Origin: a virus | Direction: 5' to 3' (one strand) | Length of the DNA stretch: 20,816 nt | Virus record (IMG/VR): IMGVR_UViG_3300008113_000466 | Location: 1-20,816 of that record | In this document: one piece after another, positions 3,506 through 10,675 of the stretch | How positions within the stretch are numbered: position 1 is the stretch's first letter | Layout of the letters: the number at the start of each line of letters is the position of its first letter | Program-made: the position numbers and the translations under genes | The notes under the pieces: generated by a model | What the model saw: only the letters and a program-made list of their open reading frames with translations | Databases searched by the model: none | What the model was told of the DNA's origin: nothing

Positions 3506-6500
3506 ATGACAACCTACCGCATCACAGCCCCCAACGGTCGCACATACCAGATTGAGGGTCCTCCGGGGGCAAGTGATGCGCAGGTAGCTCAGGCGGTCCT
3601 CGCCCAAAACCCAGAGGCCGCGCAGCCTCCGGCGGAAACCACCGTCGGTGGCAACGTCAAAGAATTCTTCAAGGGCATCGTGCCCGGGGCCATCGGCCTT
3701 GCCGAAAGCGCCGCTGTAGGCGCATCCGCCCTCCTGCCTGAAGACGCAGAAAAAGCCACCCGGCAGTTCGTCAAAGAGACTGCTGCCTCGGCACGCAAAC
3801 CATTTGAAGCTGGTGCTGGCTACGAAGAATCGATCGGCCGTAAGTTTGGCGAAGCCGTAGGCTCCACCGTTCCGTTCCTTGCATCCGCACCTTTGGGTAT
3901 TGCTGGCCGCATCGGGGCCACTGCATTGGGTGTTGGCGCTGGGGCTGGTGAAGCCCGTGGCCGTGCCGAAGAAGGTGCAGCGACCGCCGGTGAACGGGGC
4001 CTTGCCACTGCACTGGGCGCAGGTGTGGGTGTGACGGAGATGTTCGCTCCCTTGCGAATCTTGGGCCGACTGGCCGACCCCATCAAGCAAGGTGCCGCTG
4101 CCCAGATCAAGCGTGCGCTGGTCGCCGGTGGTGAAGAAGGTGCGCAGGAAGCTGCAACGCAGATCGCACAGAACTTGATTGCCAAGGGCATCTACAAGCC
4201 AGAGCAGGCCATCATCGAGCAGGTCGGTGAATCTGCAGCCTACGGTGGCGCTACTGGTGCACTGGTGCAAGGCTTGCTGGACATGGCGCTTGGTCGCCGC
4301 GCCAAAGGCACTCCGGGTGCCCCGGGCGAAATCCCAGACCTCGAACAGAAAGCACAGGCGGAGCGTGAGCGCCGCGCCACACTGGAGCTTGAACAAGGGC
4401 TCGGTGCAGAAGCCAAGGCCGCACAGGCCCAAGGGTACGTTGGCCAGCAAGGGCAGTTGTTCCGTGGCCTGCCCACCCCCACACAGCCGCAGCGAGACCT
4501 CGCAGGTCAGATTCTGGAGCCCGCGCCCGATGAGGCCGCGCCGCGCCCCTCCGACTTGTATGAAGGCTTCCCCCTGACCACAGAGGTCGCACAGGAAGCC
4601 GGGTTCGCCCGCACGCCAGAGGAGCTGGAAGCTGCAGGTCAGCAGCAGCTTGGCCTTGATGAGGTGCAGGACACAGAGTTCTTCCGGCAAGAGCTGGCCA
4701 CGCTGGACAAGGAATACACCGCGCTGCAGGCGAAGAAGGACAAGACCTCTGCTGATAACCAGCGCATGCGGGAAATCCGCACACGCCGCACCCAGTTGAA
4801 CGAGATGGTCCGGGAGCGCACTGCCAACCGTGGCCCGCAGCTCAAGCAAGGGCAGGATCAGGGCACGCTGTTCACTCCGGCCGAGCTGCGTAAAGGTGAG
4901 CGTAGCTTCACCCCGATCACAGTGCCCCCGCAGTCTCCTGCCCGTGCGCAGGACGTATCGACCCAAGAGCAGGCCGACCTCATGATAGAGGCCACGTTCG
5001 AGTATGCCGATCTGGTCAAGATGCGTGAGCAGCTCAAGGCTTCAGAGCAGACCCCAGAGATTAAGCAGCGCATCAGGTATCTGGACGGCCAGATCAGAGA
5101 CTACACCCTTGCAGGTGTGGACCAAGCGTACCAACAGCGCCTTGAGCGCGAAGCAACCGAAGGTGCGGCGGCTGAGCAGCAAGCACGTGAAGCTGCGTTG
5201 GCTGAGCAGTCTGCGTTTGCGAAGCAGCCAGAAGGGCAACCAGTTCCCGAGCCTACAGTTCGGGCAAAGCCCACGCCAGCCACCGTGCCGACGCTGATGT
5301 CGCCTGACGTGCTTGGCGTGTTGGGCATCGGCCACTCGGCCATCTTGCGCAAGCCTACCCACCCTATCCACGGGCTGGACATTACAAAACCAGAAGACGC
5401 CGCTGAAGTCAAGAAGATGCTCACGGTGTACAAGGAAGGAAAGAGTGCCCCGATCGTTGAAAAAGTGGACGCGTACCTTGCCCGTCCCGAGTTCCAAGGA
5501 GTCCCCGATGTATCAACCCCGGCAACCGCGCAACCTGCGCCTGCGGTCAGCGATAAGCCCCGAGGACGTAAGCGAAGCGTGGCGTTACCTGTACAACCTG
5601 CCACAACCGAGCTTGCTGAACCCGGAGCCGGAACTGCCCCAGCCACCGAAGCACCTGCAGCACCTGTCGGACGCGGATTGGTTCCTACTGGACCAGATGC
5701 TGGCACGGGAGATGTTGGAGTCAGCGCGGAGCAGCCTGCAGTAAAAGCCGAATACGAAGCTGCGGAAGACGCAGCGGATAAAGCTCGCGCCACAGTGGTG
5801 GAGCTGCGGAACCAATCTGACGCCGCTGGGTACGACCAGCCAGAAGGTCTGGCCGCAGACTTGGCGGAAGCTGAACGCGCAAGCGAAGAAGCCGCACGTG
5901 ATGCGAAGGCGAAGTTTGATGCGCTGCAGAAATCAGAGTCAAAAACAGAGCCGAAAACAGAGCCAAAACCCAAGGCCAAGCGCGGTGAGCTGACGCTTGC
6001 CAAGGCACGCGATACCGCAGGTGATCTGGACCTCGACCCAGAGACAACCAAGGCCAAGGTCAAGGCGTTTGCAATGCGCCTGTTCAAGGCTGGCCTGATT
6101 GATGAGATCAGCCTCAACGCAACTTTGAACATCGGCAAAGACCGGGACATGGGCCCCGAGGACATGATCGATGAGATCGAGGCCGCGCTTGACTTCTATG
6201 AACAAGAGCAGGGTAGAAGCACCACAACCCCCGAGCAACCCAAGCTCACCAAAGAGCCGATCACCATCGACGTTGAAGCGCGGGAGATTCCTGACAACCA
6301 ACGTGCTTTGCTGGAAGGCCCTGTCAGCCGCCTGCAAGAAGATCAGACTGCAGAGTTGGAAGAGTTCTACGGCGCACAAAAAGATTCGCCAGAGTTCTGG
6401 GCACGCCTGAACAAGGACGTTGCCACGTTTGCGGAGAAGGGTGCCAAGGCAATCGCCAAAGCAATCCGGGAAATCATCCGCCAAGTGCACGCCGGGGTGC

Positions 6501-9500
6501 TGGCTGTCAGCATGATCTTCAACCCAAGCGGCATGACACTGCCCGAAGGTTTTGTGGTCACCAACAAGGCGACCATCACCACCGAAGAGCAAGTGCTCGC
6601 CCCCCTGCCTGCCAATGTGAAGGGCATGTCCGAAGGCGCGAAGCTGGCATACCAGACCATGATCCCCGCCTTGAAGGGCAAGCTGGGCGACAAGCTCATC
6701 ACGATTGCAGACAAGCCGAGTGGTCGCGTCTTCATCTTCAAGCCCGATGGCACTCTGGTCCTGCAGAAGAAATCACTGTTTGGTCTGGCCAAGGGTGATC
6801 TGTACAAGGGCAACAACGACCTGCCCAGCAACCGCATCACGCCCGCTGGCATGTTTGACATCAAGGTCATCGACGCCAAGAAGGGCGCGGACGAGAAGCG
6901 CACTGCAGGTGAATACGATACCGGCACTGTGCTGGCCATCAATGATCCCGATGCGTGGGTCACCATCATGCACTCCGTCTGGCTCAAGGAAAAAGACGCT
7001 GGTGCCCGTGCTGCTGCCCTGAAGACAGACACCGCTGCAGATTCGCGGTTCTCGTTCGGTTGCATCAACATCGACAAGGCCGCATACAAAAACTTGATGG
7101 ACAACTACGCCGCCCAAATGGACGGCTCCAAGTTGTTTGTGGTGCCCGACAACCAAGCGGATACCAAAGACTTTTTGACTGGCAAGAAGCAGGGCGCAGA
7201 CGTTCTGGTGCGTGAATCCGTAGAGCCGGTGACCCGCAAAGTGACCCGTGATGTGGACACCACTTCTGCGCAGAAAGACACCCGCGTAGCAGCAGGCCGC
7301 GAACAGAAAGGTTTGCCACAGGAACGATTCTCCGTACCCGCCACGGCCACAGGGCAGACCCTCGACGCCATGCAAGCGGAGATTGCCAACATGCCCGGCA
7401 TGATGGGTGCTGCACTGCGCCGCATGCTCAAGTCCGGCAAGATCAAGCTCGAAGCTGCTGCCCCCGGGGGCCGCAAGATCGGCGGTCTGTATGACGGCAA
7501 GTCGGTCACCCTGTACGCCAACGGCATCCCCAGCGGCAAGGTCATGTCTGTGGCCCTGCACGAGGTCGGTGCCCACTTGGGCCTGAAGAACATGGTCGGC
7601 GCGAAGCAGTACGACGCCATCATCGCCCGCCTGCAGAAAATGATTGAGAAGGCTGACGGTTCCACCGAAGCCAAGATGGCACAAGCCGCGTACAAGCGCA
7701 TCCCGATTCGGGATATGAAGCGCGGCCCTGAAGTGTTTGGCGATGAGCTGCTGGCTTACTTCGTTGAAGAGATGGCCCTGTCTGAGGCTGCGGGCACCTT
7801 GCCCAAAGTCGGCATGTTGCGCAACCTGTACAACCAGATCAAGACGGGCTTCTTGACAGCAATCAACCGCGTCTTCGGCACCTCGCTGGGCATCAACGAC
7901 CTGACTGCCGAGCAGGTTCAACTGCTGGCCAAGGCTGCGTTCACGATGGAGTCCTTCACCGCTGCAAAGGGTGAGGCCACTGCCGAAAGCGAACGTAACT
8001 CCATCCCCGGCACAGCAGACCTCGACCCAGCATCCCGCGCCGCTATCAAGGCGCTGCAGGACAAACTGCCTGTGGGCGAACGCGGCCCCGAGGGTGTGGT
8101 GGGTCAGGCCGTGCAGGGCATGAAGCGTGCTCGTGAGAACTCCGGCATCATCACCACATTCCGCCAAGCCGTTGCAGACAAGTTTGCATCGGTGGAATCC
8201 AAAGTGTCGCAGATGTTCTCCAAGGGCGTGCGCGATTCCTTCGGCAACCTGAACCCTATGGTGCTGGTGCGCCAAGCGGAAGACAACGCCAAGATCATCA
8301 TGGACTTCTTCCGTGCTGGTGGCATCCGCATGACCAAGGAAGGTCTGGTCGAGACGTTCGATCAGGACAAGTCGATGGTGTCGGCGCTCAACAAAGTCAA
8401 GGACTTTGCCGCTGCAAACGGCATGACCTACGAGGAAGCCAAGTCCGAAATCTCCACCGTGCTGGAAGGCCACCGTGTGCATGGCATCCGCCAGTACAAC
8501 AACGATCTGGAGCAGTCGGCCATCATCCTTGCTGGCAAGGGCAAGACCAAAGAGGCTGCAGAAGAACGCGCCCGCAAGATCACCCTGCACATGACCAATG
8601 CAGAGATCGATCAGATGGAAGCGATCTACCAGAAGTCCAAGGGCATACAGGGCATTCAAGCTGACCTCAACGCCACCCGCACACAGGCCATCGACCTGAT
8701 GATTGCCACTGGCCGGATCACCAAAGAGCAGGGCCAATTCTGGAAGGACAACGAAGCCTACGTGCCGTTCGACCGTGTGTTTGAAGAAACCCCGGTGGCA
8801 CCGAAGTTCACCCGTGGCAAGGGCTTGGCAGTGCTGCGCAACTACCCCGGCATGGAAGGCTCACTGGGTCGCCCAGTGCGCAACGTGCTCGATGCCTACG
8901 CCAACCGCTTGAGCTGGATGGTGGAAGACACCATGCGCAACAACGCCAGCGTGAAGCTGTTGGAAGCGATGGAGCTTGGCGGCTTTGCACGTGAGATTCC
9001 CAAGGTGGAAGCTGCGCAAAACAAGAACCTTGTGGTGCCCCGCCTGTATCGCAACGGCGAGCCCGTGTTCTTCGAGGTGCAAAACGAATACGACATGCTG
9101 GCCTTCCAGCAAGCACCAGAGATCATGAACGGCCTGACCAAGGCCCTCGGTGCCACAGCCCGTATCCTGCGCGTGTCGGTCACTGCCATGCCCCCGTTTG
9201 CCATCAAGCAGGTGGTGGATGACGCGCAGCGTGCAGCGTTCTACTCCGGTGTGCAGCGTCCGCTGGTTGTTGCCATGAAGACTCTGTACAACTTCCCCAA
9301 GGTGTTCTTTGGTGAGCTGACAGGTCGCAAATCCGTGGCGGTCAAACGCATGGAAGAGCTGGGCATCATCGGTGACTACGACTTCAACATCTACGAGCCT
9401 GTGGCCGACATCGAAAAAGAAATCGGTGCCGCAAAACGCAGCGTGGCCGGTAAGACGTTCCACCGCCTTGAGCAACTCACAAAAGCCTCGGACCTTGCGG

Positions 9501-10675
9501 CTCGTTTGGCTGTGTACGAAGAGACCATGCGGGAAACCAACGGTGATGAGCTGCTGGCCCAGACCCGTGCACGCGAGTTGATCAACTTCACCCGCAGGGG
9601 CTCCAGCGCCACGATGCGTACGGCCGCACGAGTGATCCCCTTCTTCAACGCCTACGCGCAGGGTATGGACGTGCTGTACCGCTCGGCATCAGGCATCGAC
9701 GGGTCTTCCTCTGGTGAGCGCAGCGCAGCACGCAGGATGTTCATGAGCCGTGTGGCCATGATGACTGCATTCGGGTTTGCCTACGCGCTGGCCATGAGCG
9801 ACGACGAGGGCTACAAGGACGCCACAGACGAAGTGCGCGACAACAACTGGCTCCTGCCCGGCGGATACAAAATCCCCGTGCCAAAGGAATTGGCGTTCAT
9901 CTTCAAGTCCATCCCCGAGCGTGTCGTCCAGTACATGCAACGCCTCGGCACCGAGGAAGAGCAGGACATCACCAAGGCGCTGGGCAGTGTGGTCAAGGCC
10001 GGGTTCTCGGCCTACGGATCGCCCACGGCAGTGCCATCGTTTGTCCGCCCTGTGCTGGAGAACATGACCAACTATTCCTTCTTCCTGCAACGGGAGCTGG
10101 AGTCTGCATCCATGCAGCGGCTTGAAGCTGGCCAACGGTCCACGTCCTCCACATCGGAGCTGGCCAAGTCGCTTGGTGAAGCAACAAACATGTCGCCCAT
10201 CAAGATCGACAACTTCTTGCGCGGCACGTTCGGCCTTGCGGGTTCCACCACCCTGCTGGCAACAGACGCTTTGCTCAACCCGAGCCGCCCTGACCGTCCG
10301 CTGTACCAGATGCCGTTTGCCAGCATCTTCCTGTACGACACCGTTGGTGGGCGCAAGAAGGCTGAGTTCTATGACCTGCGGGAAAGGGTTGGCCAAGCCG
10401 ACGCAACCTTCAAGGACCTGCTCACCAAGGACCCAGCCAAGGCAGAGAAGTATCTGGAGAAGAACCAAGCCTTGATTGCTGCCGCCCCGCTGATCAACGA
10501 CACCTTGCGCGACTTGAGCCAGATGCGTGCCCTGCGCACGATGGTTGAACAGGGTACAGATGAGATGTTGGGCATGACCAGCGCGGAGCGCCGGGAGCTG
10601 ATTGACGAAATTCGGGAATCCGAAAACGAGATGCTCAGTTACACCCGGGAACTTGAAAAGTCGCTACGGGAATAA
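3506..10675 (+). CDS. Giant polyvalent virion protein (L,D-transpeptidase-like, metallopeptidase-like, LPD38-like regions), 2389 aa
   Basis: Probably a multi-domain protein packed in the capsid and delivered with the DNA. Residues 1-40 are a small beta-rich head (YRITAPNGRTYQIEGPPGAS) common at the start of such phage proteins. Gly/Ala-rich hydrophobic stretches lie near 55-77, 118-150, 165-188 and 240-262 and may be membrane-active. Coiled, charged sequence and Ala/Pro/Thr linkers run to about 1040. Residues 1048-1225 resemble a YkuD L,D-transpeptidase (NRITPAGMFDI, His1156, then SFGCIN with Cys1186). Residues 1320-1430 carry His1352-Glu1353-x3-His1357 and a downstream DELLAYFVEE, metallopeptidase-like. 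The helical C-terminal third includes NFTRRGSSATMRTAARVIPF (about 2027) and a nearby PGGYKIPVPKELAF, resembling LPD38 of polyvalent proteins. There is no clear Shine-Dalgarno before ATG 3506, so translational coupling is likely. The domain names are pattern recognition, not search results. Confidence 0.88.
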   Translation: MTTYRITAPNGRTYQIEGPPGASDAQVAQAVLAQNPEAAQPPAETTVGGNVKEFFKGIVPGAIGLAESAAVGASALLPEDAEKATRQFVKETAASARKPFEAGAGYEESIGRKFGEAVGSTVPFLASAPLGIAGRIGATALGVGAGAGEARGRAEEGAATAGERGLATALGAGVGVTEMFAPLRILGRLADPIKQGAAAQIKRALVAGGEEGAQEAATQIAQNLIAKGIYKPEQAIIEQVGESAAYGGATGALVQGLLDMALGRRAKGTPGAPGEIPDLEQKAQAERERRATLELEQGLGAEAKAAQAQGYVGQQGQLFRGLPTPTQPQRDLAGQILEPAPDEAAPRPSDLYEGFPLTTEVAQEAGFARTPEELEAAGQQQLGLDEVQDTEFFRQELATLDKEYTALQAKKDKTSADNQRMREIRTRRTQLNEMVRERTANRGPQLKQGQDQGTLFTPAELRKGERSFTPITVPPQSPARAQDVSTQEQADLMIEATFEYADLVKMREQLKASEQTPEIKQRIRYLDGQIRDYTLAGVDQAYQQRLEREATEGAAAEQQAREAALAEQSAFAKQPEGQPVPEPTVRAKPTPATVPTLMSPDVLGVLGIGHSAILRKPTHPIHGLDITKPEDAAEVKKMLTVYKEGKSAPIVEKVDAYLARPEFQGVPDVSTPATAQPAPAVSDKPRGRKRSVALPVQPATTELAEPGAGTAPATEAPAAPVGRGLVPTGPDAGTGDVGVSAEQPAVKAEYEAAEDAADKARATVVELRNQSDAAGYDQPEGLAADLAEAERASEEAARDAKAKFDALQKSESKTEPKTEPKPKAKRGELTLAKARDTAGDLDLDPETTKAKVKAFAMRLFKAGLIDEISLNATLNIGKDRDMGPEDMIDEIEAALDFYEQEQGRSTTTPEQPKLTKEPITIDVEAREIPDNQRALLEGPVSRLQEDQTAELEEFYGAQKDSPEFWARLNKDVATFAEKGAKAIAKAIREIIRQVHAGVLAVSMIFNPSGMTLPEGFVVTNKATITTEEQVLAPLPANVKGMSEGAKLAYQTMIPALKGKLGDKLITIADKPSGRVFIFKPDGTLVLQKKSLFGLAKGDLYKGNNDLPSNRITPAGMFDIKVIDAKKGADEKRTAGEYDTGTVLAINDPDAWVTIMHSVWLKEKDAGARAAALKTDTAADSRFSFGCINIDKAAYKNLMDNYAAQMDGSKLFVVPDNQADTKDFLTGKKQGADVLVRESVEPVTRKVTRDVDTTSAQKDTRVAAGREQKGLPQERFSVPATATGQTLDAMQAEIANMPGMMGAALRRMLKSGKIKLEAAAPGGRKIGGLYDGKSVTLYANGIPSGKVMSVALHEVGAHLGLKNMVGAKQYDAIIARLQKMIEKADGSTEAKMAQAAYKRIPIRDMKRGPEVFGDELLAYFVEEMALSEAAGTLPKVGMLRNLYNQIKTGFLTAINRVFGTSLGINDLTAEQVQLLAKAAFTMESFTAAKGEATAESERNSIPGTADLDPASRAAIKALQDKLPVGERGPEGVVGQAVQGMKRARENSGIITTFRQAVADKFASVESKVSQMFSKGVRDSFGNLNPMVLVRQAEDNAKIIMDFFRAGGIRMTKEGLVETFDQDKSMVSALNKVKDFAAANGMTYEEAKSEISTVLEGHRVHGIRQYNNDLEQSAIILAGKGKTKEAAEERARKITLHMTNAEIDQMEAIYQKSKGIQGIQADLNATRTQAIDLMIATGRITKEQGQFWKDNEAYVPFDRVFEETPVAPKFTRGKGLAVLRNYPGMEGSLGRPVRNVLDAYANRLSWMVEDTMRNNASVKLLEAMELGGFAREIPKVEAAQNKNLVVPRLYRNGEPVFFEVQNEYDMLAFQQAPEIMNGLTKALGATARILRVSVTAMPPFAIKQVVDDAQRAAFYSGVQRPLVVAMKTLYNFPKVFFGELTGRKSVAVKRMEELGIIGDYDFNIYEPVADIEKEIGAAKRSVAGKTFHRLEQLTKASDLAARLAVYEETMRETNGDELLAQTRARELINFTRRGSSATMRTAARVIPFFNAYAQGMDVLYRSASGIDGSSSGERSAARRMFMSRVAMMTAFGFAYALAMSDDEGYKDATDEVRDNNWLLPGGYKIPVPKELAFIFKSIPERVVQYMQRLGTEEEQDITKALGSVVKAGFSAYGSPTAVPSFVRPVLENMTNYSFFLQRELESASMQRLEAGQRSTSSTSELAKSLGEATNMSPIKIDNFLRGTFGLAGSTTLLATDALLNPSRPDRPLYQMPFASIFLYDTVGGRKKAEFYDLRERVGQADATFKDLLTKDPAKAEKYLEKNQALIAAAPLINDTLRDLSQMRALRTMVEQGTDEMLGMTSAERRELIDEIRESENEMLSYTRELEKSLRE
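5496..5501 (+). promoter_or_regulatory. Internal Shine-Dalgarno for nested gene
   Basis: AAGGAG sits 6 bases before the ATG at 5508, inside the giant gene but serving the second reading frame. It is a better match to the anti-Shine-Dalgarno than the signal in front of the giant gene itself. Confidence 0.6.
5508..5744 (+). CDS. Nested (overprinted) gene inside the giant polyvalent gene, 78 aa
   Basis: This frame is shifted +1 relative to the giant protein. ATG 5508 has AAGGAG at ideal spacing, and the frame runs 78 codons to TAA. The product looks like a real protein: a basic N-terminus (MYQPRQPRNLRLRS), SPEDVSEAWRYLYNLPQPSLL, a Pro/Glu linker, then a Leu/Trp-rich helix with DADWFLLDQMLAREML. 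Codon choice is like the surrounding genes (many CTG, GAG, GAC, CAG). Over the same bases the giant protein reads only Ala/Pro/Thr-rich low-complexity linker, about residues 668-746, so the nested frame appears the more constrained one. The frame stays open upstream to 5313, but that part reads as random basic sequence, so I start at 5508. No membrane segment or known domain is recognised; function unknown. Confidence 0.6.
   Translation: MYQPRQPRNLRLRSAISPEDVSEAWRYLYNLPQPSLLNPEPELPQPPKHLQHLSDADWFLLDQMLAREMLESARSSLQ

Follow-up and report, generated by a model that had tools for sequence, protein, structure and literature searches.

A very probable overprinted gene in the linker of a giant polyvalent gene of environmental tailed phages

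The window analysed here, a stretch of 20,816 nucleotides, is included in a virus record of 34,660 bases (IMG/VR record IMGVR_UViG_3300008113_000466). On its plus strand, positions 3506-10675 form a giant polyvalent gene whose main frame encodes 2389 amino acids. Its length and a match to the Pfam family LPD38 at residues 2100-2271 (E 4.6e-28) place the product among the large polyvalent proteins. Neighbouring genes match phage families for DNA ejection, primase/helicase, helicase and DNA polymerase. For the gene at 832-1848 the match is to a PHROG for a DNA ejection protein (E 3.1e-16), and this is the only context for a link between the giant protein and the virion or ejection. An earlier note had assigned the giant protein to the virion and had expected gene callers to miss the nested frame described below; both are suppositions, the first with gene context alone behind it. 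Within the giant protein, HEVGAHLGL at residues 1352-1360 (window positions 7559-7585) looks like a zinc-metallopeptidase motif (HExxxH). Residues 1181-1189 (RFSFGCINI, 7046-7072) lie in what we take to be a stretch resembling L,D-transpeptidase (YkuD-type) active sites; no L,D-transpeptidase domain was reported around them by Pfam.

Nested in the +1 frame of this gene, on the same strand, is a second open reading frame at 5508-5744. It runs from an ATG at 5508 to a TAA at 5742-5744 and encodes a 78-residue product, MYQPRQPRNLRLRSAISPEDVSEAWRYLYNLPQPSLLNPEPELPQPPKHLQHLSDADWFLLDQMLAREMLESARSSLQ. A Shine-Dalgarno sequence, AAGGAG, lies at 5496-5501 and is separated from the ATG by a 6-nt spacer (TCCCCG); its bases are written by the main-frame residues F-Q-G-V. 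Over the nested frame, the main frame (5507-5743) reads DVSTPATAQPAPAVSDKPRGRKRS...GVSAEQPAVK, a low-complexity linker of Ala, Pro, Thr, Gly and Val. The coordinates, frame and ribosome site proposed in the earlier note were all confirmed, as did its description of the main frame as an Ala/Pro/Thr linker. The nested frame also remains free of stops upstream, from 5298 to 5507. This extension is probably outside the gene, since substitutions before the start codon follow the main-frame pattern.

Open length by itself says little. When the main frame is reshuffled synonymously, 44.9% of reshuffles keep the 78 nested codons open, and the +1 frame of the giant gene contains further stop-free stretches of 135, 132 and 115 codons. 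The length of the nested frame is thus within chance, and comparison of homologues had to decide.

Homologues were collected from IMG/VR by two routes. A scan with the 78-residue protein recovered relatives down to 49% identity, and a scan with the giant protein recovered 40 loci without any use of the nested sequence. Profile searches followed; the first 19 homologues were too diverse in a single alignment for a scan of the collection, and three subgroup alignments were used instead. The subgroup scans gave 171 matching frames in 188 sequences, of which 117 are distinct, many of them less than 30% identical. Thinning of near-copies left about 60 members. Each of the 117 homologues is enclosed by a long main-frame ORF, on its strand and in its +1 frame, mostly some 450-780 codons into the giant gene, and no stand-alone copy, which the earlier note had proposed looking for, was found among them in the IMG/VR scans. 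In each of ten records of 60-74 kb, the nested profile matched exactly once. All homologues come from uncultured contigs: no relatives of the nested protein were found in the cultured phages, plasmids and GTDB genomes searched, and the giant genes of eight cultured relatives carry no nested gene in the stretches fetched. No description of the nested gene was found in the open-access literature searched. Immediately before the nested gene, the main-frame sequence is unrecognizably different between subfamilies (for example L059, L014, L031 and L174), while the nested gene stays.

Evidence for a second protein comes from the way substitutions are distributed over codon positions in 34 disjoint pairs of giant genes. 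Outside the nested ORF, main codon positions 1, 2 and 3 differ at 0.141, 0.096 and 0.336; inside it, the values are 0.208, 0.089 and 0.053. The most variable is now main position 1 (third in the nested frame), and the least variable is main position 3 (second in the nested frame). This phase flip was seen in 33 of the 34 pairs, with one tie (Fisher odds ratio 9.4, p about 4e-129, treating sites as independent), and in 51/70 windows of 40 codons inside the nested ORF vs 6/1426 outside. Its onset falls at about the predicted start codon in both the short (about 57 codons) and the long (72-78 codons) subfamilies, and its end coincides with the nested stop. The pattern recurs in L005, a close relative of the window (0.114, 0.129 and 0.071 inside; 0.068, 0.038 and 0.257 outside), from few changes. 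One subfamily shows a second apparent flip about 90-140 codons further downstream, which was taken as an alignment effect, as the other frames carry stops there.

When the overlap is allowed for by classing each site according to its effect in the two frames, dN/dS is 0.148 (95% CI 0.109-0.189) in the nested frame and 1.18 (CI 0.96-1.45) in the main frame over the same bases. Outside the nested ORF, the main frame has a dN/dS of 0.166 and the +1 frame 0.72. Nested synonymous change amounts to 0.351 per site and nested non-synonymous change to 0.057-0.067, and over the same bases the nested frames are more alike than the main frames in 1722 of 1770 pairs. The comparisons put forward in the earlier note therefore came out in its favour: the nested frame is open and conserved in homologues, main-frame synonymous change is strongly depleted over the nested stretch, and dN/dS is about 0.15 in the nested frame and near neutral in the main one.

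The main frame nevertheless stays open across the nested region in 61/61 thinned members vs 34 expected from synonymous reshuffles of the nested codons; the probability attached to this difference is only indicative, as related sequences are not independent. Across the family Ala, Pro, Gly, Val and Thr make up most of its residues here, Phe is almost absent, and there is no Trp, Tyr, His or Cys. The substitution pattern shows that this stretch is unconstrained except for openness, a linker free to drift, which fits the earlier proposal of a nested gene tolerated by, or even shaping, a disordered region. Because the nested frame is constrained and the main frame near neutral, the giant's "linker" is mainly the carrier of another gene.

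Start signals point the same way at the level of the family. In 67/115 homologues (58%), AAGGAG, AGGAGG or GGAGGA stands ahead of an in-frame start close to the predicted N-terminus, vs 29/5077 displaced control positions with the strict ribosome-site core (0.57%), an enrichment of about 100-fold. The start assigned is ATG for 75 members and GTG for 40; assignment rested partly on the ribosome site, and the comparison with displaced controls is the fair measure. Start and ribosome site together exceed chance, although this is a sequence signal only. Purifying selection on the nested frame is thus strong and accompanied by start signals of its own, and 5508-5744 is very likely a genuine overprinted protein-coding gene, with expression inferred in the absence of expression data.

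Family products are 57-78 residues long and acidic (median net charge -4), with 20% Leu and 11% Pro. Five residues are invariant in 59 aligned members (A24, P47, L50, L53 and W58). AlphaFold2 predicts two helices in the window protein, at residues 18-29 (5559-5594) and 55-77 (5670-5738), with a mean pLDDT of 72, and two in a 57-residue member, at 7-18 and 34-53, with a pLDDT of 83. The second helix bears the conserved motif L..L...[DE]W..[LV]..LL and is followed in the window by a C-terminal Gln. Every one of the 116 complete members ends in His or Gln, encoded by CAN. The A of this codon coincides with a third position of the main frame that is free to vary and has A at a frequency of 0.23, so the C-terminal residue is demanded by the nested protein. 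No membrane segment was found in the family (the greatest 19-residue hydropathy is 1.07, under 1.6), and the window protein contains no Cys. The product is predicted to be a soluble two-helix protein.

Neither a known family nor a fold indicating function was found. The window protein matches no profile in Pfam, PHROG, NCBIfam or PADLOC, and searches with both AlphaFold2 models returned no fold better than E 5. A few of the 59 members gave isolated weak profile matches (best E about 0.002). None of the candidates was taken as real: PHROG 5825 matched related members weakly and over the N-terminal half only (best E 0.0016), PADLOC PDC-M16B reached E 0.002-0.004 (best 0.0023), and the DUF433 structure 2ga1 gave E 0.0059 over 20 residues and 0.16 with a second profile.

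The nested gene is not universal among related giants. The 40 loci found without the nested sequence comprise 23 that carry the gene, 10 without it and 7 that do not cover the place, so that 10/33 covering loci are without it and the gene is dispensable in some phages. In a quick tree built from the C-terminal portion of the giant, non-carriers form two groups inside the carriers, and two losses are the simplest reading. Some branches of this tree are long, and most of its carriers were found through the nested gene. Both non-carrier groups keep the flanking domains and have a different sequence in place of the linker, which looks like loss of the gene and its linker together. No nested copy was found elsewhere in the non-carrier records, some of which are fragments. 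Loss of the frame with the linker kept had been named in advance as the outcome that would refute the gene; this was met only weakly, as two lineages appear to have lost the gene and their linker differs too. At the linker position, non-carrier giants hold different inserts and PKKVE-type repeats, as if this were a site for exchangeable cargo (L011 7500-8060; L020 8150-9110; L021 8150-8960; L023 480-1250; L026 4500-5560; L027 8150-8670; L044 7900-8430).

Taken together, the proposed mechanism is one of two proteins read from the same bases. The nested product would start independently, in the +1 frame, from the Shine-Dalgarno sequence inside the mRNA of the giant gene, as inferred from sequence; the giant polypeptide would be translated straight through, as inferred from its frame staying open, and the shared bases would serve it only as a flexible, nearly unconstrained linker. 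The tree suggests that the ancestor of this environmental tailed-phage clade already had the gene, which was later lost in two lineages. Where retained, it would have stayed put while the main-frame sequence upstream was replaced or diverged beyond recognition.

Other explanations account for parts of these observations. A chance open frame, produced by base composition and main-frame conservation, has in its favour that the open frame alone is common, surviving in 45% of synonymous reshuffles. However, main-frame conservation predicts that position 3 should be the most variable, whereas inside the nested ORF it is the least (0.053) and position 1 the most (0.208); the flip and dN/dS refute this explanation, the higher identity of the nested frame in nearly all pairs also speaks against it, and it is all but excluded. 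A conserved RNA or DNA signal in place of a second protein is likewise all but excluded. It would explain the strong conservation of main-frame synonymous sites, but not the three-base periodicity in the nested frame, where synonymous sites are free and non-synonymous sites are not, nor the amino-acid identity and C-terminal residues kept over long divergence (Rfam was not covered). A programmed +1 frameshift, in which translation would pass from the giant's N-terminal part into the nested frame and yield a shorter giant with a nested tail, draws support from the frame being open upstream to 5298 in the window. Frameshift products do occur in phage genes. Against it, constraint sets in at about the start codon whether the subfamily is short or long, the stop-free stretch in one homologue (L018) begins just 4 codons before the ATG, and start codons with strong ribosome sites are conserved; no systematic search was made for a shared slippery site. 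Frameshifting is therefore very unlikely.

A different question is what the protein does, and here the evidence is thin. The product could be a small soluble partner of the giant, such as an assembly or secretion chaperone or an ejection accessory, made where the giant is translated. This is no more than a possibility, held with low confidence, and its sole basis is that all 117 copies are embedded in the giant gene and none stands alone. A bolder version makes it a dedicated cis-acting partner, a co-translational chaperone or assembly factor, found only nested because synthesis from the same mRNA beside the nascent giant is part of its function, with the linker kept mainly as a carrier. This version is unlikely, and dispensability in some phages weakens an obligate-chaperone role. 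The same gene could instead encode a product that acts in trans, in host takeover or counter-defence, with its nested place a historical accident. Such a role is supported by a small, acidic, soluble product without a membrane segment and by loss of the gene in two lineages that still have a related giant gene. On the other hand, stand-alone copies would sometimes be expected and were seen in 0/117 cases, and no defence family matched convincingly (PADLOC at best E 0.0023). The balance tilts slightly against a trans-acting, host-directed protein, which is about as likely as a soluble partner of the giant.

Whatever its role, the nested frame represents a phage protein family of more than 100 distinct environmental sequences that apparently exists only as a gene hidden in another frame and has no entry in the libraries searched. 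The overlap is unusually clean, with one frame constrained and the other near neutral over the same bases. This highlights the disordered linkers of phage mega-genes as places to look for overlooked genes, which a scan of substitution phase can find.

Among known systems, the closest architecture is that of lambda Rz1, which is embedded wholly in the +1 frame of Rz, with the essential parts of each frame lying over the other's replaceable linker (PMC5295617). In both cases a larger phage gene contains a small one in its +1 frame. However, Rz1 belongs to the lysis complex and is a Pro-rich lipoprotein, and an Rz1-type outer-membrane spanin is ruled out here by the lack of a membrane segment and of a Cys for lipidation in the window protein. 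Unlike Rz1, the nested gene lies in a giant polyvalent gene, and no stand-alone copies were found. Overprinting, in which a new protein arises from the alternative frame of an existing gene, has been reviewed for small viruses (PMC8227390); genes B, E and K of phiX174 are familiar cases. In contrast, the carriers here are tailed phages, with record lengths of about 60-74 kb. Overlaps in such phages are usually very short. The median +1 overlap across virus genomes is 14 nt (PMC8903798), whereas the overlap described here spans about 170-237 nt. The host gene itself belongs with the large polyvalent proteins of phages, through LPD38 and a distant C-terminal similarity to annotated DarB-like/PLxRFG giants, and differs from the giants of the eight cultured phages in containing a nested gene, absent from their fetched stretches. 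The nested gene thus adds a new protein family to a kind of arrangement that is already known.
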